This document shows, piece by piece, positions 7,453 to 64,000 of a DNA stretch of 64,000 bases. The stretch is from Amphibalanus amphitrite (taxonomy: Eukaryota; Arthropoda; Thecostraca; Balanomorpha; Balanidae), in NCBI RefSeq assembly GCF_019059575.1, contig NW_024883062.1, positions 62,001-126,000 of the forward strand, given 5' to 3'. The first letter of the stretch is position 1, and the number at the start of each line of letters is the position of its first letter. Made by a program: the position numbers and the translations under genes. Below the pieces are notes generated by a model. That model was not told the DNA's origin. It searched no databases and was given only the letters and a program-made list of their open reading frames with translations.

Positions 7453-8371
7453 TTAACCCTCGCCCGCACATGCCATTTTGCCATCCTAGAACGCACATGG
7501 GGGGGGGGGGTGGTTGCCACCCCCCCGCGCCATTTCGTTCCTGTTGGAGATAGAGCTTAGCAGTAAAGACCAAAAAGATTCTTTGGGAAGAGACGAATCC
7601 AATGATACCCAGTTTTACCTTCTCAGGTCAGTCATTGACCTTCCAGGTCAGGTCAAACAAAAAAATGTTGCTGTTTTGGGTCACCGTTGGATATCAAGTG
7701 CGCTGCTTATCAAATACCGATGACGATGCTGTTTTCTGGTGCCAAGCCAGCTAGAACCTCTTTGTCACACTATCCGACCAGAATTTTGGTGCTGAGGTCA
7801 TTTCAGGTCAAGTTAGGTCAAGGTCAATTATATGTGTTTGTATGTCTGTGTGTGTCTGTGTGTATACTGATGTGTGCACCGATTGTTTTTGGGTCCATAT
7901 TACATGAAATCATGATCTGAGAAGCTTTTACCAAAAATGCAGTCAAAAAACTTCACAAAAAGAAAATTCAGCTTGCCTAAAACGCAATTATCTTAGATGA
8001 CCTAGGTTGACCTTGACCCTGACCTTGACCCCTGTACATCGTCGAACAACATGTTCCATGATAGGTGGGAGGTAAGACTGGCAAAAAAGGCCGAAATCAG
8101 GGTGTCAAAAGCTCACAAGGCCCATGGCAAACGCAAGATGTTGAGAATTGGCCATTTGGGTCATGACATGACCTGAAAAACAAGGTCATATCTCCGAAAC
8201 CAAAAATCACAGAAACTTGAAATTTTAAGTGGACATCAAGAAAGGATAGACGAGCAGCTATACGAAAAATCAGCCTTCTAGCTCTAAAAATGTTGAGTGC
8301 AGAGCAGAAAGACTGCCTGGGGGGGGGGGGTGGCAACCACCCCCCCCCCCCCATGTGCGGGCGAGGGTTAA
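7453..8371 (+). mobile_element. TTAA G-hairpin element, family A, copy 1
   Basis: Body 7457-8367 lies between TTAA at 7453-7456 and 8368-8371. It begins CCCTCGCCCGCACATG and ends with the reverse complement. The TTAA target and CCC tip match piggyBac-type transposons; no transposase is encoded, so it is non-autonomous. Near each end is a hairpin: a G run, then TGGTTGCCA (left, 7511-7519) or TGGCAACCA (right, 8331-8339), then a C run. The left end carries the terminal word twice (at the TTAA and again just before the G run); the right end carries it once. The body is rich in AGGTCA/TGACCT. A second copy at 56088-57010 is nearly identical. Confidence 0.85.
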
Positions 8372-33616: not shown

Positions 33617-34071
33617 CGGTTTTACTAGGCTAGGCGAGCCGACCCGTACCCCAGGACAACGGGATCCTGGAGGTTGAGCCCCCCACCGTGCGGAGCCAGT
33701 CGCGGTGGCTGGGCAACACGCCTCTTTGGCCCTGAGTTCTGTAAGGACGGGACACTCAGTGGGGCGCCGCACTTGAGGAGCCATTCCCAGTCGTGATGCC
33801 GCCGGGGGTGGTGTTGGAGAGGTGTCGCCGGCGGGGTTCGGGCACTTGTGCTCGTCCTCCGTCGGTGGGGCTGATCTGTCGCTGCCCCTGGCGGTGACTC
33901 GGCGAGGCGTCAAGGGAGGAGGCGGTATCCGACCGTGGGGGGTGGTGAGCCTCTCTCTCCCCCTCGGAAGGTGCCGCCAAGTCCCGTACAGTCAGCTCGG
34001 CCGTCCCAGGCCTTGTAGCGGCGCCGTTGCGGAGCGTCGGCGGCCGAGCTGGCGGAGACCAACTCTTTCAC

Positions 34072-35784: not shown

Positions 35785-38700
35785 TCTTTCAGTGTAGTCA
35801 TTTCCTCTTTTATCCTTTTATCTTTTTCGCGCTATTGCGCTTTTTTACCAGGTGCATTTCTCTCGGTGTTTTTTACCTTTTTTGTGGTCAGTCAGGTATC
35901 TGCGTGCGCCTTTGCCTCATGTTATTCGCGCCCTTTTTGCGCCTTTTTAACCACGCCTTTTATTCTACAGTGGAACTGTAGAGGCCTCCGGGCCAACTAC
36001 CAGGACCTACAGTCTCTTATCCGTTGGCGCACACCCCTTGTTTTAGGTCTCCAGGAGACCAAGCTAGCGCCAAACGTTACCTTTGCCATCAAGGGTTACT
36101 CAGTTTTTAGAAGAGACTTAGACACTCCGACCATTGCCCATGGAGGTGTACTTTTGGCAGTGCACCACAGTGTGCCCACACGTCAGGTTCCGCTGCAGAC
36201 TCCTCTGCAGGCGGTAGCCGCTAGAGTTGATTTCAACCACCGGGAGCTGACAGTTTGTTCTTTATACCTTCCACCAGGTATAGCGCTCCCGGTGGTTGAG
36301 CTGCATCGACTTGTCGATGAGCTTCCACCTCCGGTCCTGGTAGTCGGCGATTTTAATGCCCATAGCCTGGCGTGGGGATGCGACACGACTGGCACTCGTG
36401 GTCGACTTTTAGAATCTTTTATCCGCGATGAGGCGCTGTGTATTTTAAATACAGGACAGCGCACCCATTTTACAACACCCTCCGGTCAAACATCGGCTCT
36501 GGACCTGAGCTTAGTCAGTCCGCGGCTAGCTCAGCTTTTTACCTGGTCCGTCCATGACGACCCACTCGGGAGCGACCACTTCCCAGTGTGGCTGGAGCAC
36601 CAGGAGTCCCCAGTGTCAGGCAACCGTCCACCTAGGTGGAATGTTCGGAAAGCCGACTGGGGCGAATTCCAGGCCGCTGTAGAGGCTTCTGTTTTATCCA
36701 GAGCCGACCCCTCTGTGATGTCTACAGAGGATTTTACATGTTTACTCATTGACTCCGCAAACGGGTGCATACCCAAGACGTCGAGTCAGCCTCGTCGTCC
36801 TCCGGTCCCGTGGTGGACCAAGGAATGCGGAGATGCGATTCGTGCCAGGAAGCGCGCTTTTAGAAAGTTTGACCGGAGTAGTACTACTGAGAACCTCATC
36901 GCTTTTAAGAGAGCGCGGGCTTTTGCCCGACGCGTTTTAAAGGAGGCAAAGGCTGTTTCATGGCGCACTTACGTAAGTTCCTTAAACCGTTTTACTCCTA
37001 CGACCCAAATATGGGCACGCATGAAGCGCATTGAAGGCCGGTTCAGCTCTGTTCCGCTTCCGGTTTTAAGGGTGAACAACACGGACATATCTCACCCTTC
37101 AGACGTCGCAGAGACGATAGGCCGTGCACTCTATCAGCGCTGCCGAGGAGAGCCGTCCTCACGACCTGCACCAGCCGCCGTGGACTTCAGCACAGCTGAA
37201 AATTTGGTGTACAACGAGCCTTTCTCTATGGCTGAGCTCACGTCTGCCATCAGCTCGTTGCGCAGCGTCTCAGAAGGTCCGGATGCTGTCCACAACGACA
37301 TGCTCCGTCATCTCCCCACAGTTGCCCTCGAGGCGCTGCTAGCAACCTTCAATTCGCTTTGGGAGACTGGCACCTTCCCTGAGACCTGGCGGGAAGCCAT
37401 TATCATTCCTATCTTGAAGGCTGGCAAGTCGGGACATGACCCTCTCCATTATCGGCCCATCTCTCTCACATCATCGCTTTCAAAGCTGATGGAGAAGATG
37501 GTCAATGTGCGTTTTAGCTGGTTTCTGGAACATCACGGTGTTTTTACAAACGCCCAGTGCGGTTTTAGAAAGCACCGCAGCCCTGCTGACCACATTTTAG
37601 CCCTTGATTCCGAGATACGCACCTGTTTTACTGAAAAGAAGCACCTTGGAGCACTGTTCTTTGATATTGAGGCGGCCTATGATACAGTCTTACGACACAG
37701 CATACTTTCCAAAGTATATAAGTACGGCATACGCGGCCGGATGGGCCTCTTTATCAAGAATTTTTTATCGGGTCGTCGGTTTAAAGTCCGAGTTGGCAGT
37801 GATTTCTCGAGCAGTTTTACCCAGGAGAACGGAGTTCCCCAGGGTGGGGTGCTCAGTGTGGCGTTGTTCGCGGTGGCAATCAATGACATCGTCGACGACC
37901 TCCCGGTTTCCATCGGGAGATCGCTTTTTGTCGACGATTTTGCCATCTGGTTTGCTGCTTCAAGCGCTCGACACGCGGCTAGACAGCTGCAGCTCGCCGT
38001 AACACGTTTGGAGAGGTGGAGCGGTAAGAATGGCCTTCGTTTTTCCACAGCGAAGACCGTGGCAATGCACTTTTGCCGCCGACGTTGTGACGACCTAGCT
38101 TTGGGAATCAAGCTCTACGGACAGGTGATTCCCACTCGGCCGGTGGCGAAGTTTCTTGGGATTTATTTTGACAGTCGCTTGACGTATAAGGAACATTTTA
38201 GAACGCTTCGGGAACGGTGTTTTAAATCCCTGAACGTTTTAAAATGTGTTGCTCGCACATCTTATGGTGCGGACCGCAGGACCCTTCTTCTCCTGTACCG
38301 ATCGATAGTTCGGTCGAAGCTGGATTACGCTTCTTTTGTCTACGATTCAGCGAGCCAATCCAGCAAAAAGGTCCTCGACGCAGTCCATCATGCTGCAATC
38401 CGTGTCGCCACCGGAGCATTCCGCACCTCGCCCAGCAGCAGCCTTCTTGCTGAGGCGCACGAGCCGCCTCTATCCCTACGCCGCCAGATGCTTGGGATGC
38501 GATATGCGCTGAAACTGCGTCAGTTCCCGACGCATCCGACGTATCCGTACGTCTTCTCCACCTACTACACTCGACTTGACAGAGCGCGACAATCGCTCTG
38601 CTTTGGAGCGCGCATGAGAGGTCTCTTCTCCGCAGCCAACATAGGTTTACGTGTCGTACGACGTAGCTGGGGTACGTCCTCTCCGCCTTGGAAACACGCA

Positions 38701-39654
38701 AAACCTCAAGTAGATCTCTCACTCTCCGAAGTTAAGAAGGATGACTTGCTGCCTTGTGAGGCGCGAGTCAGGGCCTTGCAACACATCGTCTCGTACGATG
38801 GTTTTAACACCGTTTTTACAGACGGATCAAAAACACCTGAGGGAGTGGGATGTGCTTTTATCGCAGGTCGCGATACCCGCTCATTCTCTCTACCTTCTTT
38901 TGCCTCGGTGTTTTCATCTGAGCTAGTCGCCATCGAGAAGGCTCTGTGTTTTATCGAGGTGTCGGACGGCCTTTCTTACCTGATTTTATCGGACTCCCTA
39001 AGTAGCCTTTTGGCGTTACGGAGTTTTAATCCAGTTGACCCGATCGTTCAAGACATTTTAGCTCGACTTCAGTCAGTGGAACAATCGGGGAAATTTGTTC
39101 AGTTCTGCTGGATTCCCAGCCACGTCGGCATACACGGCAACGAGCTGGCAGATGCGGCCGCGAGGCGCGCGGCCGCAGCCTCCTGCACTCGACGTCTGCC
39201 ATTGCCGGCGCGTGACCTTTATTCGGCTGTGCGATCTTTCATTCTCTCTGAGTGGCAGGCAGAGTGGAGCCTACGTGGAGGCGGAAAGCTCCGTGAGGTG
39301 AAGCCGACTTTGGAGCCATGGAGGTCTTGCTTGCAAGACAACCGGTCCAACGAGGTGATCTTGTGCAGGCTCCGAATCGGCCATACATATGCCACGCATG
39401 GCCACCTCCTCCGCGGAGACGAGCAGGCCATTTGCAACGGTTGTTCCGCGCCTCTTACCGTCGCTCACGTGCTCTTATCTTGTCCACTTTTAGAACCAGA
39501 CCGGACGCGCTACCTCGGCCGCATCGCTCCGGGTACCACTGTCCGCCACCTGCTGGGTGACGAGTCACCCTGGGTTTTATCTGGCAACATCTTTCCTTTA
39601 TCCGTGCAGTCAAATTCCAAGCGATTTACTCGACCTGACCCAAATCCTCTCTAG
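35785..39654 (+). CDS. LINE ORF2: endonuclease, reverse transcriptase, RNase H
   Basis: Open from the codon after the ORF1 UAG to 39654. Numbering from a GTG at 35866, the APE-like endonuclease has E64, DFN 162-164 and SDH 236-238. The reverse transcriptase has D600 (FFDIEAAYD) and FVDD 688-691, where a family norm is YADD. RNase H has D986, E1019, D1043 and D1096, the full acidic set, with IPSHVGIHGNELAD. A C-terminal knuckle is CNGCSAPLTVAHVLLSC. No AUG occurs before the endonuclease; the first Met is about residue 285. Start is therefore unknown: readthrough of the UAG, reinitiation, or a non-AUG start. All catalytic residues are present. Confidence 0.9.
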   Translation, partial: SFSVVISSFILLSFSRYCAFLPGAFLSVFFTFFVVSQVSACAFASCYSRPFCAFLTTPFILQWNCRGLRANYQDLQSLIRWRTPLVLGLQETKLAPNVTFAIKGYSVFRRDLDTPTIAHGGVLLAVHHSVPTRQVPLQTPLQAVAARVDFNHRELTVCSLYLPPGIALPVVELHRLVDELPPPVLVVGDFNAHSLAWGCDTTGTRGRLLESFIRDEALCILNTGQRTHFTTPSGQTSALDLSLVSPRLAQLFTWSVHDDPLGSDHFPVWLEHQESPVSGNRPPRWNVRKADWGEFQAAVEASVLSRADPSVMSTEDFTCLLIDSANGCIPKTSSQPRRPPVPWWTKECGDAIRARKRAFRKFDRSSTTENLIAFKRARAFARRVLKEAKAVSWRTYVSSLNRFTPTTQIWARMKRIEGRFSSVPLPVLRVNNTDISHPSDVAETIGRALYQRCRGEPSSRPAPAAVDFSTAENLVYNEPFSMAELTSAISSLRSVSEGPDAVHNDMLRHLPTVALEALLATFNSLWETGTFPETWREAIIIPILKAGKSGHDPLHYRPISLTSSLSKLMEKMVNVRFSWFLEHHGVFTNAQCGFRKHRSPADHILALDSEIRTCFTEKKHLGALFFDIEAAYDTVLRHSILSKVYKYGIRGRMGLFIKNFLSGRRFKVRVGSDFSSSFTQENGVPQGGVLSVALFAVAINDIVDDLPVSIGRSLFVDDFAIWFAASSARHAARQLQLAVTRLERWSGKNGLRFSTAKTVAMHFCRRRCDDLALGIKLYGQVIPTRPVAKFLGIYFDSRLTYKEHFRTLRERCFKSLNVLKCVARTSYGADRRTLLLLYRSIVRSKLDYASFVYDSASQSSKKVLDAVHHAAIRVATGAFRTSPSSSLLAEAHEPPLSLRRQMLGMRYALKLRQFPTHPTYPYVFSTYYTRLDRARQSLCFGARMRGLFSAANIGLRVVRRSWGTSSPPWKHAKPQVDLSLSEVKKDDLLPCEARVRALQHIVSYDGFNTVFTDGSKTPEGVGCAFIAGRDTRSFSLPSFASVFSSELVAIEKALCFIEVSDGLSYLILSDSLSSLLALRSFNPVDPIVQDILARLQSVEQSGKFVQFCWIPSHVGIHGNELADAAARRAAAASCTRRLPLPARDLYSAVRSFILSEWQAEWSLRGGGKLREVKPTLEPWRSCLQDNRSNEVILCRLRIGHTYATHGHLLRGDEQAICNGCSAPLTVAHVLLSCPLLEPDRTRYLGRIAPGTTVRHLLGDESPWVLSGNIFPLSVQSNSKRFTRPDPNPL

Positions 39655-39860
39655 TCTCCTTGTCTAGTCAGTTGTCTATTACGACGCTTTTGCGTTGTTT
39701 TATTTTACCCTGTCCTTTTTTTTATAAAGTCTTCTACTTTCTAGTCTTGATATCTAGAAAGTTTCTTCTTTTGAAACACTTGTTTTACTAGCGCGACGTT
39801 ATGGGCGCAAAATGACTTTGCAGTCGACGCGCCCTAAAGCCCCAATAAACAAACAAACAA

Positions 39861-41680
39861 CTCAAGAGAACGGAGTTCCCCAAGGCGGAGTTCTCAGTGT
39901 GGCGCTGTTCGCTGTGGCGATCAATGATATTGGCGACAAACTTGCACCATCCATCGGCAGATCGCTATTTGTCGATGATTTCGCGATCTGGTTTTCTGCC
40001 ACGACCGCCCGTCACGTTGCCAGACAGTTGCAGCTCGCTGTAACCCGTCTAGAGAGGTGGAGCGACGACAACGGCCTACGTTTTTCAACAACGAAGACGG
40101 TCGCTATGCACTTTTGCCGCCGCCGCTGCGACGACTTAGCCTTGGGAATTAAGCTCCGTGGACAGGTGTTTCCTACTCGGCCGGTGGCAAAGTTTCTTGG
40201 AATATTTTTTGACAGTCGTTTGACGTATAGAGAACATTTTAGAACGCTTCGGGAACGATGTTTTAAATCCCTGAACGTTTTAAAATGTGTCGCCCGCACA
40301 TCTTATGGTGCGGACCGCAGGACGCTCCTTCTTTTATATCGGTCGATCGTCCGATCGAAACTGGATTACGCATGCTTTGTTTACGACTCTGCCAGCGAAT
40401 CCAGTAAAAAGGCTCTTGACTCCGTGCACCACGCGGCGCGACGTGTTGCCACAGGTGCATTCCGCACGTCGCCCAAGAGCAGCCTCCTCGCCGAGGCACA
40501 CGAACCGCCACTATCTCTCCGCCGTCAGATGCTGGGGATGAGGTACGCACTGAAACTCCGCCAGTTCCCAGGACATCCGACGTATCCGTACGTCTTTTCT
40601 CCTGATTTTAATCGTCTTGACAGAGTGCGACAATCGGTCTCCTTCGGATTGCGCATAAAAGAGCTCTTTTCTACAGTCAACATAGAGTTCCGTGAAGTGC
40701 GACGTACGTGGGGTACGCCCTCTCCGCCATGGAAATACGCTCCAGCGCAAGTAGACCTCACGCTCTCTGAGGTCAAGAAGGACGACCTGCCGCCATGTGT
40801 GCAACGAGCACGGGCATTGGAACACATTGCGTCATACGACGGTTTTATCTCGGTGTTTACAGACGGCTCGAAAACGGAGGACGGCGTCGGCTGCGCTTTC
40901 GTGGCTGGTCGCGACACGCGCACTTTTTCATTGCCTTCCTCTGCCTCCGTTTTCTCATCCGAGCTCGTTGCAATCGAGAAGGCGTTGTGTTTTATCGAGG
41001 TGTCTGACAACTTGTCTTACCTCATTTTATCGGATTCTCTCAGCAGCCTGCTGGCCATACGGAGGTTCAACCCAGACAATCCGATAGTCCAAGACATTTT
41101 ATCTCGGCTCACGTCGGTGGAGCAGTCAGGCAAAACTATTAAGTTTTGCTGGATTCCAAGCCATGTGGGTATAACTGGCAATGAGCTCGCCGACGCGGCC
41201 GCGAGACGCGCGGCCGCGGCTCCATGCCTTCGGCGTTTGCCCCTGCCGGCTCGTGATTTTTACCCAGCCATCCAAACCTTCACGATGTCAAGCTGGCAGG
41301 CAGAGTGGCATCTCCAAGGATCTGGGAAGCTGCGGAGCGTGAAACCTACCTTGGAGCCCTGGCAGTCTTGCTTCCAAAGCAACAGGCACCAGGAAGTGGC
41401 CCTCTGCAGATTACGTATTGGTCATACGTGCGCGACTCATGGCTATCTCCTCCGTGGAGAGGAACAACCCACATGCAGTCGGTGTGCCGTGCCTCTCACT
41501 GTCTCTCACGTGCTTTTATCTTGTCCTCTCGCTGAACCGAACCGGACACGCTATCTCGGGCGCATCGCTCCGGATACCACTATCCGCCACCTTCTGGGTG
41601 ACGACTCACCCTGGGTTTTATCCGGCAACATTTTTTCCTTTATCCGTTCGATCAACTTCCAAGCGATTTACTCGACCTGA
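39861..41680 (+). CDS. Truncated LINE ORF2: partial RT plus RNase H
   Basis: About 606 codons remain, open throughout: FVDDFAIW of the reverse transcriptase, complete RNase H (FTDGSKTEDGVGCAF, SSELVAIEKAL, LILSDSLSSL, WIPSHVGITGNELADAAAR) and knuckle CSRCAVPLTVSHVLLSC. The frame also runs back into the tail of the previous copy (to 39812), making a chance chimeric frame. Compared with the neighbouring copy, DNA differences are many but fall largely in third codon positions, so this copy comes from a distinct lineage that was under selection before insertion. It cannot be autonomous. Confidence 0.8.
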
Positions 41681-44431: not shown

Positions 44432-45060
44432 TTAACGCTCGCCCTGGCAGGGCATTTTTCATAACACGGCCTGGCAGGGGGGGGGGGTCGATGCGACCCC
44501 CCCCCCCCCCCCTCGCGATTGGCTCCTATGGCACCTAGAAACACCAAATTTGGTAGGTAGGTGGGCCCCCTGGAGTTCTCGCCCCTGTGCAAATTTGGTT
44601 GCTCTAGGTCAATATTTAGGGGGGGTTGGGGGGTATAAATGTAAAAATTTCGCTAAAAACAGGTCAAAAGTTTTTCGCTTATAACTTTTGATCTAATTAA
44701 AATAGAGCAAAAAGAAAGGGCACCAGTGAACTCAGCACGTCAAGGCGCGTCGAATGATATACTTTTTAGCTTGCTTAAGTGTACTTAAAGTTTTCTTAAT
44801 TTTTAGGTAAGTAAACTTTAATTAATCAATTAAGTTCGCCTGTCAATTTTCTCCCATAAACTTATGCCTAATGGGGAGGTCGCAAAATTGACCTGGCCTT
44901 AGGTCACCGATATCAAAATTCCAAGACATACATCTTCTACATGCTCTTACGACTTACTCTTATCGATCGCTGAAAGCTTTGAGGTGATCGTTCAGTCGGT
45001 GTAGCTTTGACAAGCATTCTAACTTTATTCTGAGGTGAGGTCACGGTTGGGGTAGGTACT
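44432..45060 (+). mobile_element. TTAA G-hairpin element, family E, left part only
   Basis: Starts at TTAA (44432-44435) with CGCTCGCCCTGGCAGGGC. The word CCTGGCAGGG is repeated just before a G run, then TCG-ATG-CGA, then a C run, giving a long hairpin at about 44477-44512. The body at 44853-45020 matches the element at 62808 (shared GGGGAGGTCGCAAAATTGACC). No right terminus was found; the adjoining repeat block at 45067 probably interrupts it. Confidence 0.6.
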
Positions 45061-49321: not shown

Positions 49322-49930
49322 ATGAGATGCATGTTGATCAAGACAGCCCATATTCAGCCCAGATTCAGCCCGGATTCAGCCCAGATTCGGGACACCTCCG
49401 ATCAAGCTGAAACTCGCACACAATGTAGGCCATGACATGCCCAATCCACAGTCCAAGTCATTTGGTGGCACTCCCAGCCGTTTGACCTACAGAGGTCAGC
49501 AAAGGTCACGTGGCCCAAATTTGCACAGCAGATTGTGGCCCACCCAGTAGAGCTAGAGCGCTAAAAATGGCACCAATCGACTCGCCAGCATCTAATCTTA
49601 CTTTCCCAACACTCATTTGACCTCTCAAGGTCATGCGATGACCTAAGGTCATTTGTGGGCTATGTCGAAAATACACTTGCACAGCAGTTTTCGAGTAGAT
49701 GGATTGACCGAATTCCAAATCAAAGCAGATCATCGGGTAGCCCATAGGCCGTAGTAACTTTCCTTGAAAACTGCTTTTCGATATGTGACCCCGTTTGACC
49801 TCGGCAGGTCAAAATGTGCAAATAAACGACACTCAATACGTCGCAGCCCGGATTCAGCCCAGATTCGGGACACCTCCGATCAAGCTGAAACTCGCACGCA
49901 ATGTAGGCCATGACATGCCCAATCCACAGT

Positions 49931-51757
49931 TTAACCCTATTAGTGGCAGGGGGGGGGGTTGTTTTCATCCACCCCTCAGGTTTTTCGGGAATATCTCCGA
50001 AACCGCTGAAGCTACGATGCTGAAATTTTCTGACTTTTCCTAAAACTAAATTGGGCATATTCCCTGAAAATTTCAAGTTCATAACTTTACCAGGGGCGGC
50101 TCCAGAGCACTGGGAATTGGGGGGTCGTATTCGTGAAGCGAGTCATTTGGGCGAAGATCACGATGCTGCACCAGTTTTACGAACTGAAAGGTATCATGTG
50201 ATAACATATACAGTTATTGTGCATCCTCTTTTGACACGTTTTTGCTATAATAGGCGGATCCAGGCGTCCAAAAAGGGGGGTTATGTTTTACCTCCCAACA
50301 TAGGTGCCCTGACACCGCCTATGCATGACCAATACAATTGTAGTCGTTCTCTCATAAGAAAATTGTAACATAACAAGACCATTACCACCCTTTTTAGAAA
50401 CAGTAGGGGAAGGTGGGGTAAGACGGCCCAGCGGGGCAAGACGGACCACCAGCCCTCCCGGCTGAACCGCTGCTGGTATCTACTGCTTTATGCACTCACT
50501 ATGTTTGTTTTCCTTCGTAACAATGGCCACCTTGAGCTCATGCTGCTAGGATGCATAGCTTTTGAGTTATTGAGAAAAATGTTGTTTTTCGTCAAACCGA
50601 TCTAATATAAGAGGTCTACAGGTGATTCAATTACGGCGCCTTTCTTGCATGATTAGTTTCTATTTTGCACTTAACTGTGAAGAACAAAGTTATAAACTTA
50701 GTTATAGTCACACTTTAGGAAAGGCAAGGTTTTGCATTGTTGGGCTATTTGACATATACGTCATGATAATGACAGAATTTAGATTTGGGGCAAGACGGAC
50801 CACTGTGGTCCATCTTACCCTGTGGTGGTCCATTGTACTCTGCATATGGAAAGTTATTTTCCAAAACATTGACACAAGTTTAAGTAAGCTAATTTTTCAG
50901 GAAGGAGTCTTTGTTGCATGTGAGCAATGCATGCAAGTGCTCAGTTAGCATGCATTCATGCCAAACGACAATCAACACACATGTTCCCAGCTTTTAGCTG
51001 CACTTCCATCACACATGAGTAAAGAATAAAGGCTCATTTTGTTATTTTACCATTCTGGTATCTTTTTCTTGCAAGAGTACAGAGCAGAAGTGTAACACAC
51101 ATGCGCGGATAGCAGGCACTGCTGGGTGGTCCGTCTTACCCCACGTTTTTTCTTGTCTGAGTTTTTGACATGTCCCTCTTTAAGAGCATCCACCACCTAG
51201 ATGTCTTTAATTTGAAATTTAGTCTTTACAAATATCAACAGAGGAAGGATTGAGCATTCCGAAGAATATAAATAATATGAATTACGAGAGCAGTGTAGCA
51301 AGATATGCGGCCTCAAACCTTAGCTGGTCCGTCTTACCCCACCTTCCCCTACCAACAAAAACCTTATTTACTATACTTTTTGTGTACCCCCAATCTCAAT
51401 GATCTGTATCCGCCTATGATTTTTGAAAATGCATATTTTTAGGATCCATGTGAATTCCTGGTTCATTCTCTATCGATCGGCAAAAGTTGCGTTAAGATTG
51501 GTTCAGAAACCTGGCCGTGATAAACAGTCTAAAATGTATCTGCAATTTGCCCGTTTTTACCCCCCTCTACCCCCCCTATTGACATTTTTTAATTTTTATT
51601 TTTTAGAAATGTAGATCACGTTGAGCGAAATCGAATGCCGTTTGAATTTTGAAAATCGGCCCGTTAGATCTCGAGATATCAAGGGGGGGGGGTCGTAAAC
51701 AGCCCCCCTCCCTGCCACTAATAGGGGTAGCCAGGAGCCTGCCACTAATAGGGTTAA
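49931..51757 (-). mobile_element. TTAA G-hairpin element, family D
   Basis: TTAA at 49931-49934 and 51754-51757; tips CCCTATTAGTGGCAGG. The right end carries the terminal word twice (51707-51725 and 51740-51753), the left end once, so the element is reversed relative to the others. Consistent with that, reading the minus strand the single end is preceded by GAGATATTCCCGAAAAACC, matching the element at 62808. Inserted in a foldback unit at an existing TTAA. It contains a TA-flanked element at 50404-51351. Confidence 0.85.
50404..51351. mobile_element. TA-flanked element, word GTAAGACGGACC
   Basis: TA at 50404-50405 and 51350-51351; tips GGGGAAGGTGGGGTAAGACG with a perfect inverted right tip. 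The word GG(G/C)AAGACGGACC or its complement recurs at about 50433, 50788, 50808, 51128 and 51326. Nested inside the family D element. No coding. Confidence 0.88.
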
Positions 51758-54700
51758 GTCATTCGGTGGCACTCCCCGCCGTTTGACCTACAGAGGTCAG
51801 CAAAGGTCACGTGGCCCAAATTTGCACAGCAGATTGTGGCCCACCCAGTAGAGGTAGAGCGCTAAAAATGGCACCAATCGACTCGCCAGCATCTAATCTT
51901 ACTTTCCCAACACTCATTTGACCTCTCAAGGTCATGCGATGACCTAAGGTCATTTGTGGGCTATGTCGAAAATACACTTGCACAGCAGTTTTCGAGTAGA
52001 TGGATTGACCGAATTACAAATCAAAGCACATCATCGGGTAGCCCATAGGCCGTAGTATCTTTCCTTAAAAACTGCTTTTCGATATGTGACCCTGTTTGAC
52101 CTCGGCAGGTCAAAATGTGCAAATAAACGACACTCAATACGTCGCAGCCCGGATTCAGCCCAGATTCGGGACACCTCCGATCAAGCTGAAACTCGCACAC
52201 AATGTAGGCCATGACATGCCCAATCCACAGTCCAAGTCATTCGGTGGCACTCCCAGCCGTTTGACCTACAGAGGTCAGCAAAGGTCACGTGGCCCAAATT
52301 TGCACAGCAGATTGTGGCCCACCCAGTAGAGCTAGAGCGCTAAAAATGGCACCAATCGACTCGCCAGCATCTAATCTTACTTTCTCAACACTCATTTGAC
52401 CTCTCAAGGTCATGCGATGACCTAAGGTCATTTGTGGGCTATGTCGAAAATACATTTGCACAGCAGTTTTCGAGTAGATGGATTGACCGAATTCCAAATC
52501 AAAGCACATCATCGGGTAGCCCGTAGGCCGTAGTAACTTTCCTTAAAACCGCTTTTCGATATGTGACCCCGTTTGACCTCGGCAGGTCAAAATGTGCAAA
52601 TAAACGACACTCAATACGTCGCAGCCCGGATTCAGCCCAGATTCGGGACACCTCTGATCAAGCTGAAACTCGCACAAAATGTAGGCCATGACATGCGCAA
52701 TCCACAGTCCAAGTCATTCGGTGGCACTCCCAGCCGTTTGACCTACAGAGGTCAGCAAAGGTCACGTGGCCCAAATTTGCACAGCAGATTGTGGCCCACC
52801 CAGTAGAGCTAGAGCGCTAAAAATGGCACCAATCGACTCGCCAGCATCTAATCTTACTTTCCCAACACTCATTTGACCTCTCAAGGTCATGCGATGACCT
52901 AAGGTCATTTGTGGGCTATGTCGAAAATACACTTGCACAGCTGTTTTCGAGTAGATGGATTGACCGAATTCCAAATCAAAGCAGATCATCGGGTAGCCCA
53001 TAGGCCGTAGTAACTTTCCTTGAAAACCGCTTCTCGATATGTGACCCCGTTTGACCTCGGCAGGTCAAAATGAGCAAATAAACGACACTCAATACGTCGC
53101 AGCCCGGATTCAGCCCAGATTCGGGACACCTCCGATCAAGCTGAAACTCGCACACAATGTAGGCCATGACATGCCCAATCCTCAGTTTAAGTCATTCGGT
53201 GGCACTCCCAGCCGTTTGACCTACAGAGGTCAGCAAAGGTCACGTGGCCCAAATTTGCACAGCAGATTGTGGCCCACCCAGTAGAGGTAGAGCGCTAAAA
53301 ATGGCACCAATCGACTCGCCAGCATCTAATCTTACTTTCCCAACACTCATTTGACCTCTCAAGGTCATGCGATGACCTAAGGTCCTTTGTGGGCTATGTC
53401 GAAAATACATTTGCACAGCAGTTTTCGACTAGATGGATTGACCGAATTCCAAATCAAAGCACATCATCGGGTAGCCCATAGGCCGTAGTATCTTTCCTTA
53501 AAAACTGCTTTTCGATATGTGACCCTGTTTGACCTCGGCAGGTCAAAATGTGCAAATAAACGACACTCAATACGTCGCAGCCCGGATTCAGCCCAGATTC
53601 GGGACACCTCCGATCAAGCTGAAACTCGCACACAATGTAGGCCATGACATGCCCAATCCACAGTCCAAGTCATTCGGTGGCACTCCCAGCCGTTTGACCT
53701 ACAGAGGTCAGCAAAGGTCACGTGGCCCAAATTTGCACAGCAGATTGTGGCCCACCCAGTAGAGCTAGAGCGCTAAAAATGGCACCAATCGACTCGCCAG
53801 CATCTAATCTTACTTTCTCAACACTCATTTGACCTCTCAAGGTCATGCGATGACCTAAGTTCATTTGTGGGCTATGTCGAAAATACATTTGCACAGCAGT
53901 TTTCGAGTAGATGGATTGACCGAATTCCAAATCAAAGCACATCATCGGGTAGCCCATAGGCCGTAGTAACTTTCCTTAAAACTGCTTTTCGATATGTGAC
54001 CCCGTTTGACCTCGGCAGGTCAAAATGTGCAAATAAACGACACTCAATACGTCGCAGCCCGGATTCAGCCCAGATTCGGGACACCTCTGATCAAGCTGAA
54101 ACTCGCACAAAATGTAGGCCATGACATGCGCAATCCACAGTTCAAGTCATTCGGTGGCACTCCCAGCCGTTTGACCTACAGAGGTCAGCAAAGGTCACGT
54201 GGCCCAAATTTGCACAGCAGATTGTGGCCCACCCAGTAGAGCTAGAGCGCTAAAAATGGCACCAATCGACTCGCCAGCATCTAATCTTACTTTCCCAACA
54301 CTCATTTGACCTCTCAAGGTCATGCGATGACCTAAGGTCATTTGTGGGCTATGTCGAAAATACAATTGCACAGCAGTTTTCGAGTAGATGGATTGACCGA
54401 ATTCCAAATCAAAGCACATCATCGGGTAGCCCATAGGCCTTAGTAACTTTCCTTAAAAACCGCTTTTCGATATGTGACCCCGTTTGACCTCGGCAGGTCA
54501 AAAGGTGCAAATAAACGACACTCAATACGTTGCAGCCCGGATTCAGCCCAGATTCGGGACACCTCTGATCAAGCTGAAACTCGCACACAATGTAGGCCAT
54601 GACATGCCCAATCCACAGTCCAAGTCATTCGGTGGCACTCCCAGCCGTTTGACCTACAGAGGTCAGCAAAGGTCACGTGGCCCAAATTTGCACAGCAGAT

Positions 54701-55523
54701 TGTGGCCCACCCAGTAGAGCTAGAGCGCTAAAAATGGCACCAATCGACTCGCAAGAATCTAATCTTACTTTCCCAACACTCATTTGACCTCTCAAGGTCA
54801 TGCGATGACCTAAGGTCATTTGTGGGCTATGTCGAAAATACATTTGCACAGCAGTTTTCGACTAGATGGATTGACCGAATTCCAAATCAAAGCACATCAT
54901 CGGGTAGCCCATAGGCCGTAGTAACTTTCCTTAAAAACTGCTTTTCGATATGTGACCCTGTTTGACCTCGGCAGGTCAAAATGTGCAAATAAACGACACT
55001 CAATACGTCGCAGCCCGGATTCAGCCCAGATTCGGGACACCTCCGATCAAGCTGAAACTCGCACACAATGTAGGCCATGACATGCCCAATCCACAGTCCA
55101 AGTCATTCGGTAGCACTCCCAGCCGTTTGACCTACAGAGGTCAGCAAAGGTCACGTGGCCCAAATTTGCACAGCAGATTGTGGCCCACCCAGTAAAGCTA
55201 GAGCGCTAAAAATGGCACCAATCGACTCGCCAGCATCTAATCTTACTTTCCCAACACTCATTTGACCTCTCAAGGTCATGCGATGACCTAAGGTCATTTG
55301 TGGGCTATGTCGAAAATACATTTGCACAGCAGTTTTCGAGTAGATGGATTGACCGAATTCCAAATCAAAGCACATAGGCCGTAGTAACTTTCCTTAAAAA
55401 CCGCTTTTCGATATGTGACCCCGTTTGACCTCGGCAGGTCAAAATGTGCAAATAAACGACACTCAATACGTCGCAGCCCGGATTCAGCCCAGATTCGGGA
55501 CACCTCTGATCAAGCTGAAACTC
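51758..55523 (+). repeat. 478-bp tandem units, forward arm
   Basis: The anchor GATATGTGACCC recurs at 478-base spacing (for example 54469 to 54947), with the same arm also at 49340-49930. The last step is shorter (to 55410) because 15 bases around 55375 are missing. Each unit carries about nine AGGTCA/TGACCT half-sites. Short frames repeating through the array are by-products. Confidence 0.95.
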
Positions 55524-58395
55524 GACGTATGCGACGTATTGAGTGTCGTTTATTTGCACATTTTGACCTGCCGAGGTCAAACGGGGTCACATATCGAAAA
55601 GCGGTTTTTAAGGAAAGTTACTACGGCCTATGGGCTACCCGATGATGTGCTTTGATTTGGAATTCGGTCAATCCATCTACTCGAAAACTGCTGTGCAAGT
55701 GTATTTTCGACATAGCCCACAAATGACCTTAGGTCATCGCATGACCTTGAGAGGTCTAATGAGTGTTGGGAAAGTAAGATTAGATTCTGGCGAGTCGATT
55801 GGTGCCATTTTTAGCGCTCTAGCTCTACTGGGTGGGCCACAATCTGCTGTGCAAATTTGGGCCACGTGACCTTTGCTGACCTCTGTAGGTCAAACGGCTG
55901 GGAGTGCCACCGAATGACTTGGACTGTGGATTGGGGATGTCATGGCCTACATTGTGTGCGAGTTTTAGCTTGATCGGAGGTGTCCCGAATCTGGTCTGAA
56001 TCCGGGCTGCGACGACTATTGAGTGTCGTTTATTTGCACATTTTGACCTGCCGAGGTCAAACGGGGTCACATATCGAAAAGCGGTTTTTAACCCTCGCCC
56101 GCACATGCCATTTTCCCATCCTAGAACGCACATGGGGGGGGGGTGGTTGCCACCCCCCCCCCCGCGCCATTTCGTTCCTGTTGGAGATAGAGCTTAGCGG
56201 TAAAGACCAAAAAGATTCTTTGGGAAGAGACGAATCCAATGATACCCAGTTTTACCTTCTCAGGTCAGTCATTGACCTTCCAGGTCAGGTCAAACTAAAA
56301 AATGTTGCTGTTTTGGGTCACCGTTGGATATCAAGTGTGCTGCTTATCAAATACCGATGACGATGCTGTTTTCTGGTGCCAAGCCAGCTAGAACCTCTTT
56401 GTCACACTACCCGACCAGAATTTTGCTGCTGAGGTCATTTCAGGTCAAGTTAGGTCAAGGTCAATTATATGTGTTTGTATGTCTGTGTGTGTCTGTGTGT
56501 ATACTGATGTGTGCACCGATTGTTTTTGGGTCCATATTACATGAAATCATGATCTGAGAAGCTTTTACCAAAAATGCAGTCAAAAAACTTCAAAAAAGTA
56601 AATTCAGCTTGCCTAAAACGCAATTATCTTAGATGACCTAGGTTGACCTTGACCCTGACCTTGACCCTTGTACATCGTCGAACAACATGTTCCATGATAG
56701 GTGGGAGGTAAGACTGGCAAAAAAGGCCGAAATCAGGGTGTCAAAAGCTCATAAGGCCCATGGCAAACGCAATATGTTGAGAATTGGCCATTTGGGTCAT
56801 GACATGACCTGACAAACAAGGTCATATCTCCGAAACCAAAAATCACAGAAACTTGAAATTTTCAGTGGACATCAAAAAAAGATAGAGGAGCAGCTATACG
56901 AAAAATCAGCCTTCTAGCTCTAAAAATGTTGAGTGCAGAGCAGAAAGACTACCTGGGGGGGGGGGGGGGTGGCAACCACCCCCCCCCCCCCATGTGCGGG
57001 CGAGGGTTAAGGAAAGTTACTACGGCCTATGGGCTACCCGATGATGTGCTTTGATTTAAAATTCGGTCAATCCATCTACTCGAAAACTGCTGTGCAAGTG
57101 TATTTTCTAGCCCACAAATGACCTTAGGTCATCGCATGACCTTGAGAGGTCAAATGAGTGTTGGGAAAGTAAGATTAGATGCTGGCGAGTCGATTGGTGC
57201 CATTTTTAGCGCTCTAGCTCTACTGGGTGGGCCACAATCTGCTGTGCAAATTTGGGCCACGTGACCTTTGCTGACCTCTGTAGGTCAAACGGCTGAGAGT
57301 GCCACCGAATGACTTGGACTGTGGATTGGGCATGTCATGGCCTACATTGTGTGCGAGTTTCAGCTTGATCGGAGGTGTCCCGAATCTGGGCTGAATCCGG
57401 GCTGCGACGTATTGAGTGTCGTTTATTTGCACATTTTGACCTGCCGAGGTCAAACAGGGTCACTTATCGAAAAGCAGTTTTTAAGGAAAGTTACTACGGC
57501 CTATGGGCTACCCGATGATGTGCTTTGATTTGGAATTCGGTCAATCCATCTACTCAAAAACTGCTGTGCAAATGTATTTTCGACATAGCCCACAAATGAC
57601 CTTAGGTCATCGCATGACCTTGAGAGGTCCAATGAGTGTTGAGAAAGTAAGATTAGATGCTGGCGAGTGGATTGGTGCCATTTTTAGCGCTCTAGCTCTA
57701 CTGGGTGGGCCACAATCTGCTGTGCAAATTTGGGCCACGTGACCTTTGCTGACCTCTGTAGGTCAAACGGCGGGGAGTGCCACCGAATGACTTGGACTGT
57801 GGATTGGGCATGTCATGGCCTACATTGCGTGCGAGTTTCAGCTTGATCAGAGGTGTCCCGAACCTGGGTTGAATCCGGGCTGCGACGTATTGAGTGTCGT
57901 TTATTTGCACATTTTGACCTGCCGAGGTCAAACGGGGTCACATATCGAAAAGCGGTTTTTAAAGAAAGTTACTACGGCCTATGGGCTACCCGATGATGTG
58001 CTGTAATTTGGAATTTGGTCAATCCATCTACTCGAAAACTGCTGTGCAAATGTATTTTCGACATAGCCCACAAATGACCTTAGGTCATCGCATGACCTTG
58101 AGAGGTCAAATGAGTGTTGGGAAAGTAAGGTTAGATGCTGGCGAGGCGATTGGTGCCATTTTTAGCGCTCTAGCTCTACTGGGTGGGCCACAATCTGCTG
58201 TGCAAATTTGGGCCACGTGACCTTTGCTGACCTCTGTCGGTCAAACGGCGGGGAGTGCCACCGAATGACTTGGACTGTGGATTGAGCATGTCATGGCCTA
58301 CATTGTGTGCGAGTTTCAGCTTGATCGGAGGTGTCCCGAATCTGGGCTGAATCCGGGCTGAATCTGGGCTGAATATGGGCTGTCTTGACGGACAT
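55524..58395 (-). repeat. 478-bp tandem units, reverse arm
   Basis: The same unit on the opposite strand, about four copies once the 919-bp insertion at 56092 is discounted. It ends with GAATATGGGCTGTCTTGACG, the mirror of the left outer tip. The turn from forward to reverse falls within a unit near CTGAAACTCGACGTATG. Confidence 0.93.
56088..57010 (+). mobile_element. TTAA G-hairpin element, family A, copy 2
   Basis: Body 56092-57006 between TTAA at 56088-56091 and 57007-57010. Nearly identical to 7453-8371 over its length, including both hairpins (TGGTTGCCA and TGGCAACCA tips between G and C runs) and the doubled left word. It interrupts a 478-bp unit exactly at its GTTTTTAAGGAAAG site, which is uninterrupted in neighbouring units. 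Confidence 0.93.
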
Positions 58396-58405
58396 ATGAG
58401 ATGCA

Positions 58406-60197
58406 CCGGTTTGTTCTCCGGTCGGAGCTGGCAGCGGTCTTCTGACGCCGGCGCCGTCTTCACCACCCGCCTCGTCACCACGGCACGGTGTAGGTACAGG
58501 TGGACCGACATTTCTGCGCCACGTCACAACCCCCCCCCCCTCTCCTGCTGGCGCCCGGCTACAACATCACTTGACGACTGACGTCGCCGTCACAGCTCTC
58601 TGGTGACGTCATCATCACGACCTCGAGCGACATGGGGTACCTACCATCCGGCCGCCATGATTGGTCCAGCACCACTCGCTGACCACTCCAGAGGCGCACT
58701 CCGGTCCATCTACGGCGTCCGAGACTACTTCTGCTGCTCACCATGTTCCTGACGAACCAGTGATATCTCCAATTGCTGCAGCCACTGTTGTCGGTATCCA
58801 ACAACGCATGCCTGTGCATCCCTACTCTCATATCTTGCTGCAAGAGTTTAGCAGCTTCTGCCAAATTGTCAGGGAACTCAGATTTGTTTTTCAATTGAAA
58901 AACACAATTCTAAAGAATAGTGTTTTAACTATTGACAACAAACCTTCGGTTATTGACACCTCCTATTGTCGGTTCCAGGGGTAGGGGAGGTAATGTCGCA
59001 CAGCCGTCCTGCTACCCCGAATATAGACCCGTGCAGATTGCACTTTCATCCTTGCAACATCAACATTGCAGCTTTATGATAATCGCGTAGCGGACCGGAC
59101 GGCCTGGGCCACAGCGTGTGCGTGCAAAATGCTAATTACGTGCGGCGCTCCCGCAGCGCACTGCCGTGGCCGTCCTTGGTTAGCACGCTCACGCGCATCA
59201 TATCACATCCGTCGCGTCTTTGAACGAGATGAGTTTGAAAGGGCCCGCTGACAGTACGAGTACATAGCTGATGCATAGCAAAACCTATATTAACCAAAAA
59301 ATAATCCAGTCACGCTGCAAAGACAAACATTAAACTTTCGAAAAACAGAAACATTGTAAACTCACCACAAATGCACACAATGGATATTCGAGAATACCTA
59401 CGTTGAAAAAGATATCGTTTCACGGAATAAAAACATATTACAACGTTTTGTAAGTGTGTCCAACAGCATAACAAACTATACTGCTGTTCTAATTATATCT
59501 ACATTGTTTAAAGAATCATCCGTTATGTAAAAGCTGAATTACCAATACTGGCTAACATAACTCATCACTTTAAACATTTTCATTGGGACGCCATCGAAAT
59601 GACTTGAAAAGGTCATTTTGGTCAAAGGACGCAAGGACGGAAGGTCAAAGGACGGAGGGTGACTGACCGACAGTTACGCATATGAAGCTCTAAACGTGTG
59701 CGCATTAATTGATGTACCTATAGATAAGAGGGGTCGAGCGATGAAATAGCGGCTGTGTGATTGAGGGCCGGACCGATGTGATCACAAATGGGATGGGGAC
59801 TGGGTGACGCTGTTGCTATCATGATCAAAGAATCTTGATCGTGACTGCCACGACCGCAGCGCTGCCCCTGGACGGCTCCCAGCGCCTCTAGTGGATGGAG
59901 TGCGGGCATCCAGCGCCTCTAGTGGGCGGAATACGGCTCCCAGCGCCTCTAGTGGGCGGAATACGGCTCCCAGCGCCTCTAGTGGATGGAGTGCGGGCAT
60001 CCAGCGCCTCTAGTGGGCGGAGTATGGGGCTGCAGACAAAAGTTTGCATCGAAAATGTTCGTATAGCAAATGTACGATAGGTCATTGCATTTGGTGGTGG
60101 CAAATGCCAACGTGTAGTTTTCTTTGCACAGGTCTTTCCGTGGTGTAAATCCCCATCGTCTGGCAAATCATTTGGGTCATTGCATTTTGTATGTTTT
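58406..60197. other. Intergenic, no gene recognised
   Basis: GC-rich near 58420-58560, then AT-rich. A minisatellite (59872-60032) is the only structure found. Confidence 0.5.
59872..60032. repeat. AGCGCCTCTAGTGG minisatellite, array 2
   Basis: Five units of about 27-33 bases (CAGCGCCTCTAGTGGGCGG and variants with GGATGGAGTGCGG) matching the array at 41917-42091. The units differ from those of array 1, so the two arrays expanded separately. Confidence 0.88.
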
Positions 60198-61083
60198 TTA
60201 ACCCTCGCATGTGTGCGGCGTTTGCCAGCTTCTAATGTGTAGGGGGGGTTGGACCCCCCTTGCCGTTTGGCCCCTGATCGAGCTAGAGCTTCGCGGAAAA
60301 AAAAAACGAGCGTGTTGCCCGTGACGAGAGGAAGCCGATGATACCCAATTTTAAGGTCCTAGGTCATTGGTTGACTTTTCAGGTCAGGTCAGTGACCCAA
60401 AGTCGGGAAAATCGGGACCTGTTACATAGAAAGTCGTTAAGTGTGGCTGCTAATGGGTTTTTCGGGGTGCTGATCACGAATATCGTGTTAGTTTTGATCA
60501 GAGATGATGTCTTTAAGCATTAACAGCAGGGCGGGTCAGGTCAGGTCAGGTCGACCAGTAGGCGCCGTGACGGGTATTCGGAGTACGTGTCAACCGCCTC
60601 TGACAGCTTCGTAACATGTTACGAAGTCACCAAAACTACTTCGTAAATGTTCAAATGGTTGCTAAATTCGAATTCAGCTCCAAAAACTAGCCTAGAAACA
60701 TGTAAAACTCCAAAAAGTGAACCGAGGTCATCAAAGGTCAATGACTTGACCTGACCTTCAGGTGACCTTGACACCCACCCTAATGCATGGGAGCAGCATC
60801 AAATCACATGTTTGAGTGTTTGAAACCACGAAAAGCTTGCAAACGCGCGGCTAATGCGAGCCGACATACGCGGAATCGCGATTCCGGCCAAACATGGTCT
60901 CGGAAAAGAGGTCACAGGTCAAAGGTAATTGGGGTCAGGGTCATGAAATTTTCAGGGTAGGTGTAAAATTGATTAATGCGAGGGTACTGAAAGTTTCGTC
61001 GCGATCAACCGCTTTTTACGCGAGTTATTCGCGAAAAACCATGGGGGTCCATCCGTCCCCCCCCCTACACATGCGAGGGTTAA
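60198..61083 (+). mobile_element. TTAA G-hairpin element, family B
   Basis: TTAA at 60198-60201 and 61080-61083; tips CCCTCGCATGTGTG and reverse complement. The left end has an inner echo (AATGTGTAGGGGGG) before a G/C-run hairpin at about 60241-60260. The right end is preceded by GAGTTATTCGCGAAAAACC, then a G run and a C run. AGGTCA-rich body, no transposase. Confidence 0.85.
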
Positions 61084-61633
61084 AACGTTATACCTGCTTA
61101 TCAGACAAATAAAGACATTTTCTGACAAAAATATCTATACATCAACAAATATACGTAGGACCAAAGTATCTACTTTGTTTTGCCCTACCTAAACACTAAA
61201 GTATGTAGGTAGTTACCTGTTTGTTGCAAATGTTCGCAGGGCATTAAATGCCCACGCATTGACAAAAATATAAGTTATGCTAGGCTATGATTGAGGTATA
61301 TTATATGCGAACAATGATTTTTAAATACCCTCCTTACAATACAATACCAAATGATGATAGAATGAAATAATTATTGCTGATTTGGACCACAGGTCATTAT
61401 CAAAATAAGCCAGACAGAACTGCTGTAAGACACGTGTGTTTTTACGATTTTTGGCTTTATTTCATTCTCTCATCAAGTAGGTGACTTAAAAATCATTTTC
61501 CTCATACATCTTATACCTATGCCTTACATACGACAAGTGCTACAAGCATGCTAGGCTATGTTTGGCTATTAACTGTGGCTAGCACTGTTTTGAGATACCT
61601 ACATGCTTAAACATATAGAATAGTCAAGTAAGG
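61084..61633. other. Intergenic, AT-rich
   Basis: No gene or repeat end recognised. Confidence 0.55.
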
Positions 61634-62615
61634 TAAGGTAAGGTGCCTAATTAGCGACCCCCTTAATTTGAACCGTCATTGCTCATGCTCTGTGGGTGCC
61701 ACTGTATTACTGGTTTGATTTTCGGAGAGATCGTTCATTTTTCTATTAAAATATAGTCATTTTCCGTCCCAATATTCACTAACTTATTTGTAGTGAGCAT
61801 TTTGGCAAACCTTTGCAAAAAAACGCTAATAGGGAACTCTTCCCGATTAGCGACCGGGGAGGGTCGCTAATAAGTCTATGGGTTTCCCCATATTAAAAAT
61901 GGCAAAAAATGCGACGCCTGAAAAGATGAAATATGATCTCAAAAAGTTAACCTATACGCAAAGCACTCAATCACTCGAACAGGAACGTTTATCCAACACA
62001 TTTACGTAAGTAAAAACTGATCACGTGATGCACCGAAGGCGAAAAGAAGGCGGAAACCCAAATTTTGCGAGCTATCTCGTATGATATTCGAGGTTCGCGC
62101 TGAATTCGGCACCCCTGCAGTTGGTGACGACATTTGGCATCCCCTGCCGCACATTGCAAGCTTCAGCAACACCTCATTTTCATTTCTCTCTTTTCCCCTT
62201 TCTTTTCCTTCTTGAGCTATTTGCGACCATGTCAGGCGCAAATAGGAAATATGAGTTGCGACACATTTTTAACCGCCATGCTGTGCACAGTTGAGCGATT
62301 CACTATGGGAAAACGGCAATCAATTGAAAAAGGAATGTCGATTCAGAATAAAAAAGGTGCATCATCCTAATGTGCATCGCTTTTTATCAGAGAGGGCCCA
62401 AACACATACGTTTTGGATAAGAAACTCGTCCTTTTTATTTAAACTCACCTGAAACGTCCCACCAGAAACATCGACGACCGGCAAATAATTTAATTTGATA
62501 ACCAAAGCATGGCTGACCTTTTGACGATATTTTTACCCCGTTTTCTTCTGCCAGTTTTTCTGTAGGGAGGTAGGTCGTAAATCGGAAAGGGTCGCTAATT
62601 AGGCACCTTACCCTA
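61634..62615. mobile_element. TA-flanked element, word TTAGCGACCC
   Basis: TA at 61634-61635 and 62614-62615; tips AGGTAAGGTGCCTAATTAGC (left) and the matching right end with one difference. The word ATTAGCGACC or GGTCGCTAAT recurs at about 61845-61872 as a close inverted pair. No coding; an open frame at 62134-62370 has no recognised domain. Confidence 0.85.
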
Positions 62616-62807
62616 ACCTTGTTCTCAAAACTAATGTAAAAAAAACAACAACAAGAAAAATGCCATTTTTTAGGAGATTTCGGCTTATGCGTTCTTCAAC
62701 TCGCTCTATTTTATTCTACTTTTAGTGCAAAAACGTTTAACTTCAAATCAGTCAAGCTCCTCAAAACTATGCAGCTGTTTTCATAACCGAAGGTTTGTTG
62801 TCAATAG

Positions 62808-64000
62808 TTAACCCGCGCCCTGCTGGGGGTCCTGGATTTCCACGCCCTGCTGGGGGGGGGGGTGTTTGAACACCCCCCCTTGTAACTCGGCTCCTGGGCC
62901 ACGTAGCGATACGCGGAAGGCGGCGTTCGAAAGAGCGTCAAAAATAATGACGAAATCACTTCGGTCAAATTTTTGGTCAGGTCAAAGGTCAGGTCACCAG
63001 AGGTCATTGAAGGCAAAATTTCGCCGATTTCCAGGTCGAATGTCGAAAATTTCCAAGAAGCCAACGCAGAACTCGGGAACCAATAGAGCTACAGCGCCGC
63101 GGAAAAGCGCATTCGATAGCCCTATTAACGCCCTTTCTGAGCAATTCTCTCAGATTTGACCTAACGTCAACGGTTTTGCCTGCAGGGGGCAAAAACTGCA
63201 AAAATAGCCGATTTTTTCGAAAACAGTTTTTCTGCAATAACTTTTGACCCAAGCCTTGTACGAGCTTACTTTTACCGGCATCGTGTTCCTCTCGTCAAGA
63301 CGCATCGAATGAATTATGACTTGACCTTGAAAGGTCAACTTGAAAATTTGACCTCAGGTCAAGGTCATGACCTGACCGGAAAGGGTCATGTTGCATATCA
63401 GTCGATCCGTATCGTCGAGCTGAACACATCTAAGGCGTTTTCAGCGCTCTAGCATGCCTCTATCAAAAGTTATTTGCGAAAAACTGTTAGATACCATTCG
63501 TGACCTAAGATGACCTCAGGGCATAAACAAGGGTCACGGACACCATTTTCAAGTTCAGTGTGTCTAAACCACTTGTAATTCGGTGTTTGGGAGTGTTTAT
63601 AATGTCTTTCATCCAAAAGAGGCGCATTTCAATTTTCTCCCATTGACTTATAATGGGGAGGTCGCAAAATTGACCTGACCTTAGGTCATCGATATCAAAA
63701 TTCTGAGATATACATTTTGTACATGCTATTGCTCTTAGCAATCGCTGAAAGTTTCAAAGCGATCGGTCACTCGGTGTAGCTATGACAGACATTGAAAGTT
63801 TTTATGAGGTGAGGTCACTTCAAGTGACCTGGTGACCTGACCTTGAATGACCTTGGTCTGAAATTTTCACAACATGTGTAGAATTGATGTATGATAAGGT
63901 GTACCAAAAACGGCGGCGCTCCGCGCCGCCGTTTTTGAGATATTCGCGAAAAACCACAAGGGGGGGTGTTCAAACACCCCCCCCCCCAGCAGGGCGCGGG
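62808..64000 (+). mobile_element. TTAA G-hairpin element, family C (cut by window end)
   Basis: TTAA at 62808-62811, then CCCGCGCCCTGCTGGGGG. The word CGCCCTGCTGGGGG is repeated before a G run; GGGGGGGTGTT pairs with AACACCCCCCC (about 62854-62878). The right end has GGGTGTT, CA, AACACCC runs and the single word ending GGGCGCGGG exactly at base 64000; the closing TTAA would lie just outside. A perfect 14-bp hairpin lies at 63906-63936. Body rich in AGGTCA; no transposase. Confidence 0.85.
63906..63936. other. Perfect 14-bp hairpin inside family C element
   Basis: AAAAACGGCGGCGC and its exact complement flank a TCC loop, 20 bases before the right-end G tract. Function unknown. Confidence 0.9.

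Follow-up and report, generated by a model that had tools for sequence, protein, structure and literature searches.

The TTAA-bounded elements found in the window, the whole 64-kb stretch of Amphibalanus amphitrite DNA analysed here, very probably belong to the piggyBac superfamily as non-autonomous elements of MITE type, and their G-tract palindrome would most likely be the internal-repeat dyad recognised by a dimer of the transposase CRD. The strongest new points are the constancy, throughout the genome, of a shift of ~27 bp between the palindromes of the two ends and the occurrence of different end modules on common bodies.

The initial annotation had described five families (A to E) in the window, and all of them were located. 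Five complete TTAA-bounded elements of 886-1827 bp (A1, A2, B, C and D) were recognised, E being truncated. Element A1 (7453..8371, + strand; 919 bp including both TTAA) has its long end at the left, with a palindrome at 7499..7526 (+; G12-TGGTTGCCA-C7), and its short end at the right, where the palindrome at 8319..8352 shows the core TGGTTGCCA on the opposite strand (-). Element A2 (56088..57010, +; 923 bp) sits in a satellite of ~478 bp, with empty sites in adjacent units. Element B (60198..61083, +; 886 bp), also with the long end left and the short end right, is damaged at both tips and its palindromes are decayed: the long-end one (60242..60259, +) shows TTGGA at the left of the modal family core TCGGTTGGA, and the short-end one (61043..61065, -) shows ACGGATGGA in place of the modal family core TCGGATGGA. 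Element C (62808..64000, +; 1197 bp) has its long end at the left and its closing TTAA at 64001-64004, beyond the window edge; its long-end palindrome (62852..62879, +) reads G11-TGTTTGAACA-C7, and the same core is found again in the short-end palindrome (63960..63987, -). Element D (49931..51757, -; 1827 bp) lies reversed within the satellite, with its long end at the right, and its cores CTGTTTACGA and TTGTTTTCATCCA present almost no pairing. Element E (44432..44837, +) retains only a long end, with a palindrome at 44477..44512 (+; G11-TCGATGCGA-C16); it resembles its family member L141 over ~406 bp only, and a search for its right end found none. The tips TGG/CCA in A, TGTT/AACA in C and TCG/CGA in E, on which the annotation had based its argument, are all present.

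Terminal inverted repeats of the CCC type, a tip shared with T. ni piggyBac, were found in A, B, C and D. The window copy of E begins with CGC, and CCC was found in two other copies of this family, L141 and one genome match, the latter retrieved by a pattern that itself demanded CCC. The joined flanks of A2 matched the satellite array or its inverted part 10 times (for example at 55548..55671, +, with 2 mismatches in 124 positions) and those of D 12 times (for example at 53127..53250, +, with 3 in 124); 21 of these 22 matches presented 2-7 mismatches in 124, and the remaining one 24. An inverted copy of the joined flanks of C, compared by eye, was found at 58881..58944 (-). These empty sites therefore establish three TTAA-precise insertions, those of A2, D and C, and together with the CCC tips and the unequal ends described below they bear out the assignment of the ends to the piggyBac type. 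No empty sites for A1, B or E were found within the 64-kb window. A 3.9-kb TTAA element had been suspected because the 16-bp termini at 58925 and 62811 match; it turned out to be an inverted host-repeat copy holding the empty site of C. No stop-to-stop frame of at least 180 aa lies wholly within A-E, as expected of non-autonomous elements.

Other features of the window were also observed. The ~478-bp satellite array, with an inverted part, occupies 49360-58396 and is broken up by D and A2. The motif AGGTCA/TGACCT, the nuclear-receptor half-site, is dense: it reaches 17.6 and 18.8 occurrences per kb in C and in the satellite (51757-55380), respectively, 14.1 in both copies of A and 13.5 in B. 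The rest of the window has 0.98 per kb, and D lacks the motif. A separate short element with inverted ends AAGGTAAGGTGCCTAATTAGCGACC, noticed by eye at 61630-62620, stands outside the TTAA group. The stretch 33949-41680 comprises a LINE, whose domains are endonuclease, reverse transcriptase and RNase H, and, downstream of it, a second partial frame that repeats its sequence. In its LINE-type reverse transcriptases and a sugar/MFS-type transporter the window looks like animal DNA.

The key feature overlooked by the initial annotation is the asymmetry between long and short ends. From outside inwards, the short end consists of TTAA, the tip, a family-specific word, the G run, the core and the C run, whereas in the long end the tip and the word are followed by a spacer of ~20 bp and a repeat of the word before the G run, so that the palindrome lies ~27 bp deeper. 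This shift was 27 bp in A and C, 26 bp in B and, by eye, 27 bp in D, for which the parser gave 31 because the G run of D is interrupted. Among 27 pairs of terminal inverted repeats taken from the window and from fetched DNA, 22 could be parsed, and all 22 combined a long with a short end, none being symmetric; these represent at most 21 independent cases, since L144 and L146, with bodies of 100% identity, probably derive from a single duplicated segment, and the fetched stretches were mostly picked around pattern matches or transposase genes rather than sampled at random. The five unparsed pairs comprised two that were long and short by eye, one mispairing and two from another TTAA family. Inverted copies of a different TTAA terminus (TTAACCCCGCCTSAAACACC), without the G-tract palindrome, were seen at L143:1886-3067 and 1886-4308. 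Twenty of the 22 parsed elements had a shift of 26-28 bp, and the other two, in which a G run is interrupted, gave 30 and 31 bp; the value of ~27 bp was kept in all eight end words represented by both ends. The elements thus present unequal ends with a shifted palindromic internal repeat, as in the T. ni type.

The same geometry was observed on a genomic scale. In 807.6 Mb (2,644 contigs), the pattern TTAACCCN{8,38}GGGGGGN{3,14}CCCCCC gave 29,250 forward matches, whereas its reversed version gave 5, and chance is therefore excluded; the reverse-strand count of 81,979 appears inflated, one G run being counted several times. When the start of the G run was fixed and the length of run plus core limited, on the forward strand, 12,844 matches (control, 0) placed the G run at 11-16 bp from TTAA and 11,472 (control, 2) at 36-44 bp, corresponding to short and long ends, whereas the interval of 17-35 bp between them held 489 (control, 3), that is, 24,316 counted ends against 489. 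Among 100 listed ends of the general pattern, 40 were long, with the G run at 39-41 bp from TTAA, and 60 were short, 57 of them at 13-15 bp and the others at 10 and 17. At ~1 kb each, 29,250 elements would make up some 3-4% of the genome, a figure that decayed ends escape. The genome contains tens of thousands of small, gene-less elements with ends of the piggyBac plan, and the 22 parsed elements (573-1827 bp) are short, without genes and of high copy number, as are MITEs. Outside this genome, the general pattern met at least 120 stretches in viral contigs, and among the matches listed none carried these words except a bare TTAACCCGCGCC in L079; viral relatives were rejected, the listed strings looking like terminators or chance. 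One inner motif gave no match in viral contigs, and one exact pattern none in prokaryote genome contigs.

A comparable arrangement has been described for T. ni piggyBac (LE35/RE63), in which the target is TTAA and the ends are unequal, an insertion plus a duplicated sequence at one end shifting the internal repeat by ~27-28 bp. According to this account (PMC7351741), bp 34-63 of RE are nearly equal to bp 7-35 of LE, a CRD dimer occupies bp 17-33, the groove becoming narrower around bp 25, and the unequal ends are termed a puzzling, enigmatic arrangement. A palindromic internal repeat near the tip, bound by a dimer of the transposase C-terminal CRD, is thus a known feature (PMC7351741, PMC11707139), and the remark of the initial annotation that the G-tract hairpin is not known as a standard piggyBac feature does not hold insofar as it concerns a palindrome inside the tip. 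The CRD of piggyBat, from Myotis lucifugus and of the same superfamily, has a different fold and its dimer recognises an unrelated palindrome (PMC11707139); piggyBat has the palindrome at the left end only, whereas the elements studied here carry one at both ends. Inner palindromic repeats near both ends are also described for the piggyBac-like human MER75, MER85 and Looper, as a common characteristic that could theoretically form hairpins or cruciforms; the passages of this source on the three elements leave G-tract cores unmentioned (PMC12324416), and the likeness noted here concerns the palindromes. Unlike T. ni piggyBac, the barnacle elements have no transposase gene, fall into many families with differing words, and build the palindrome from a G run and a C run around a short family-specific core. 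This G-tract composition is the sole unusual point of their palindromes. A literature search, judged mostly from listing entries, returned no account of G-tract piggyBac ends or of end-module exchange.

It was proposed in the initial annotation that both sides of the hairpin change together and that the fold itself, in DNA or RNA, is kept by selection. The first part holds between families. In a sample of 135 ends (100 listed and 35 others), assigned to 18 core groups by a clustering that merged too much, and hence conservatively (A, B and E share a group), right halves were permuted among the groups 20,000 times, shared descent not being modelled. The outermost position was paired in 14 of 18 groups (permutation mean 7.8; 47 of 20,000 permutations reached the observed value), the outer two positions in 25 of 36 cases (mean 12.8; 1 of 20,000) and the outer three in 35 of 54 (mean 17.2; 0 of 20,000), and full complementarity of the outer two was found in 10 of 18 groups (mean 2.2; 0 of 20,000). 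Within a family the joint change fails. Among 55 listed short ends that share one inner sequence, 48 carried one of three words and 7 another; the family core was exact in 40 of these 48 and, as judged by eye, different without compensation in 8. Variation of stem tips without compensation, which the annotation had named as contrary evidence, is therefore found in part, within families.

The second part, selection of the fold as an RNA hairpin, a cruciform or an extruded single-stranded DNA hairpin, is improbable and was rejected as the main reading. Besides the arms paired between families and the theoretical capacity for hairpins mentioned above, it can draw on the strong hairpins predicted for C (folding z of -3.2 at both ends), E (-3.2) and one A1 end (-2.3, against -1.5 at the other). 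Among the nine ends tested as DNA, however, the long and short ends of B gave -2.1 and 0.0 and those of D, which hardly pairs, -1.0 and -0.3, the folding thus agreeing with the pairing seen in the sequences. Moreover, in 5 of the 18 core groups no more than 0-2 bases next to the centre are left unpaired, which gives no room for a hairpin loop, and T-G wobble accounts for only 1 of the 19 mismatches at the three outer positions. The lengths of G and C runs are uncorrelated (r = -0.03, 61 ends; G-run lengths may contain assembly errors), and in the one backbone tested neither compensation within the family nor tolerance of wobble was seen. A known protein-binding dyad occupies the same place (PMC7351741). 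A site recognised by a protein in double-stranded DNA explains the pattern between and within families better than a selected hairpin, because change between families together with decay within them is what should be expected of a double-stranded recognition site selected only in active copies.

Arms might also be kept complementary without any selection, through templated correction of quasi-palindromes or conversion between inverted ends, and a similarly low probability was given to this explanation. It would account for the long and short modal cores being equal or one base apart in 6 of the 8 end words with both ends, and G and C runs vary as slippage predicts. However, the imperfect core TCGGATGGA persists uncorrected in many copies, 19 of the 20 with its end type having it unchanged; the 8 variants among the 48 within-family copies are likewise uncorrected, and for each of the words ACCGAC and GGCCGA the two ends retain different cores.

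The search for an autonomous partner with the same ends was unsuccessful. The profile PF13843 gave at least 116 matches in the genome, many in open frames of 550-680 aa, and none in 14 control genomes; groups of equal score among the matches listed suggest near-identical transposase copies and, consequently, recent activity. None of the 24 loci examined among these matches (12 with flanks of ~2 kb, the other 12 covered by 0.6-0.9 kb of downstream flank) had G-tract ends as its own. In 8 of the 12 fully fetched loci (L149, L150, L153, L154, L156, L157, L159 and L160), piggyBac transposase genes in open frames were enclosed by paired TTAACCC ends whose words differ from those studied here; at five loci G-tract elements appeared nearby as separate insertions (L151, L154, L155, L160 and L168). 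Of 17 autonomous ends scanned, 3 contained a dyad with 8-10 unbroken pairs, at bp 15-34 (GTGTCCTCATATGAGGACAC) or 16-33 (CGTATCATTTATGATACG and TGGTCACATTTGTGACCA), each at one end of its element, and the other 14 showed no such dyad at these positions; in three related copies, one end presented a dyad of 12 bp at bp 51-62. L149, L159 and L160 thus share with the G-tract elements the TTAACCC tip and, at one end, a dyad in this position, but they differ in their tip words (ATTAGCGCTC, AGATCTGCCC and ATTAGAGCCC), in the lack of G runs in the dyad and in that a shifted second copy was not found at the opposite end. Another TTAA superfamily, such as Kolobok, resembling piggyBac by convergence would agree with the lack of a linked transposase at the 24 loci, but this is highly improbable in view of the CCC tips, the long/short asymmetry with its 27-bp shift, the dyad near bp 25 and the abundance of piggyBac transposases, which have paired TTAACCC ends of their own at the 8 loci listed.

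The double-stranded CRD site remains the preferred reading. The short end would represent one transposase-binding unit, and the long end repeats the word and carries the palindrome ~27 bp further in; the CRD dimer would grip the G-tract dyad in double-stranded DNA, and since both arms would have to fit one CRD, they would change together upon a change of specificity. The transposase would be supplied in trans, and bodies may change partners through exchange of end modules. Against this explanation, no transposase with these ends was found at the 24 loci, 14 of the 17 autonomous ends have no such dyad, most G runs exceed 6, and D, CTATTTTTTG and CATTTTTTTG are poorly palindromic. With a G run of 6 the core is centred at bp 25, in agreement with the plan of T. 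ni piggyBac, and longer runs (the median length is 10) push the palindrome centre to ~bp 29. The cores CTATTTTTTG and CATTTTTTTG are complementary only at their outer bases, and D and cores such as CTATTTTTTG fit a double-stranded site less well.

The inner sequence GGTTTTTCGCGAATAACTCG with upstream TTAACCC was found 2,005 times per strand (controls, 0), and three main end types stand out among the 55 cases listed. The sample contained five whole elements of this backbone (L144 with its duplicate L146, two in L143, one in L137, and window B). The bodies of L144:4750-5654 and L143:4907-5815 are 94.1% identical, whereas their short-end prefixes agree in 9 of 14 bases, 7 of which are the common CCCTCGC, and their cores in 3 of 9 (short) and 6 of 9 (long). 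L144 shares its end type with window B; the two bodies are 94.6% identical, and the prefixes agree at 14 of 14 positions in the short end and at 39 of 40 in the long end. Between L144 and L137:1871-2745, of the other end type, the body is 93.2% identical and the long prefix agrees in 16 of 40. At either end of the elements, identity resumes at the inner palindrome edge. Near-identical bodies (94%) therefore bear different end modules at both termini, which is new. The simplest reading would be exchange of end modules with a related family by recombination or conversion; very fast concerted change in place may be the cause instead. The end modules are probably related, because the spacers of two types keep some resemblance. 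A more tentative proposal is that a large set of parallel piggyBac recognition codes exists in this genome, in which word and palindrome may be swapped as one module at both ends and a body may thereby change its transposase. The link between word and core on which this draws comes from one backbone, in which 40 of the 48 assignable copies were exact and none (0/48) had a word and a core from different families.

These elements form an abundant and diverse non-autonomous piggyBac-type group with unequal ends like those of T. ni piggyBac and unusual G-tract palindromes. The ~27-bp shift in 8 of 8 end words, together with the 24,316 ends against 489 at intermediate distances, provides natural evidence that this geometry is required. 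The many pairs of word and palindrome would offer orthogonal end specificities for piggyBac, and the replacement of ends on a body 94% identical makes it possible to study partner change in non-autonomous elements.
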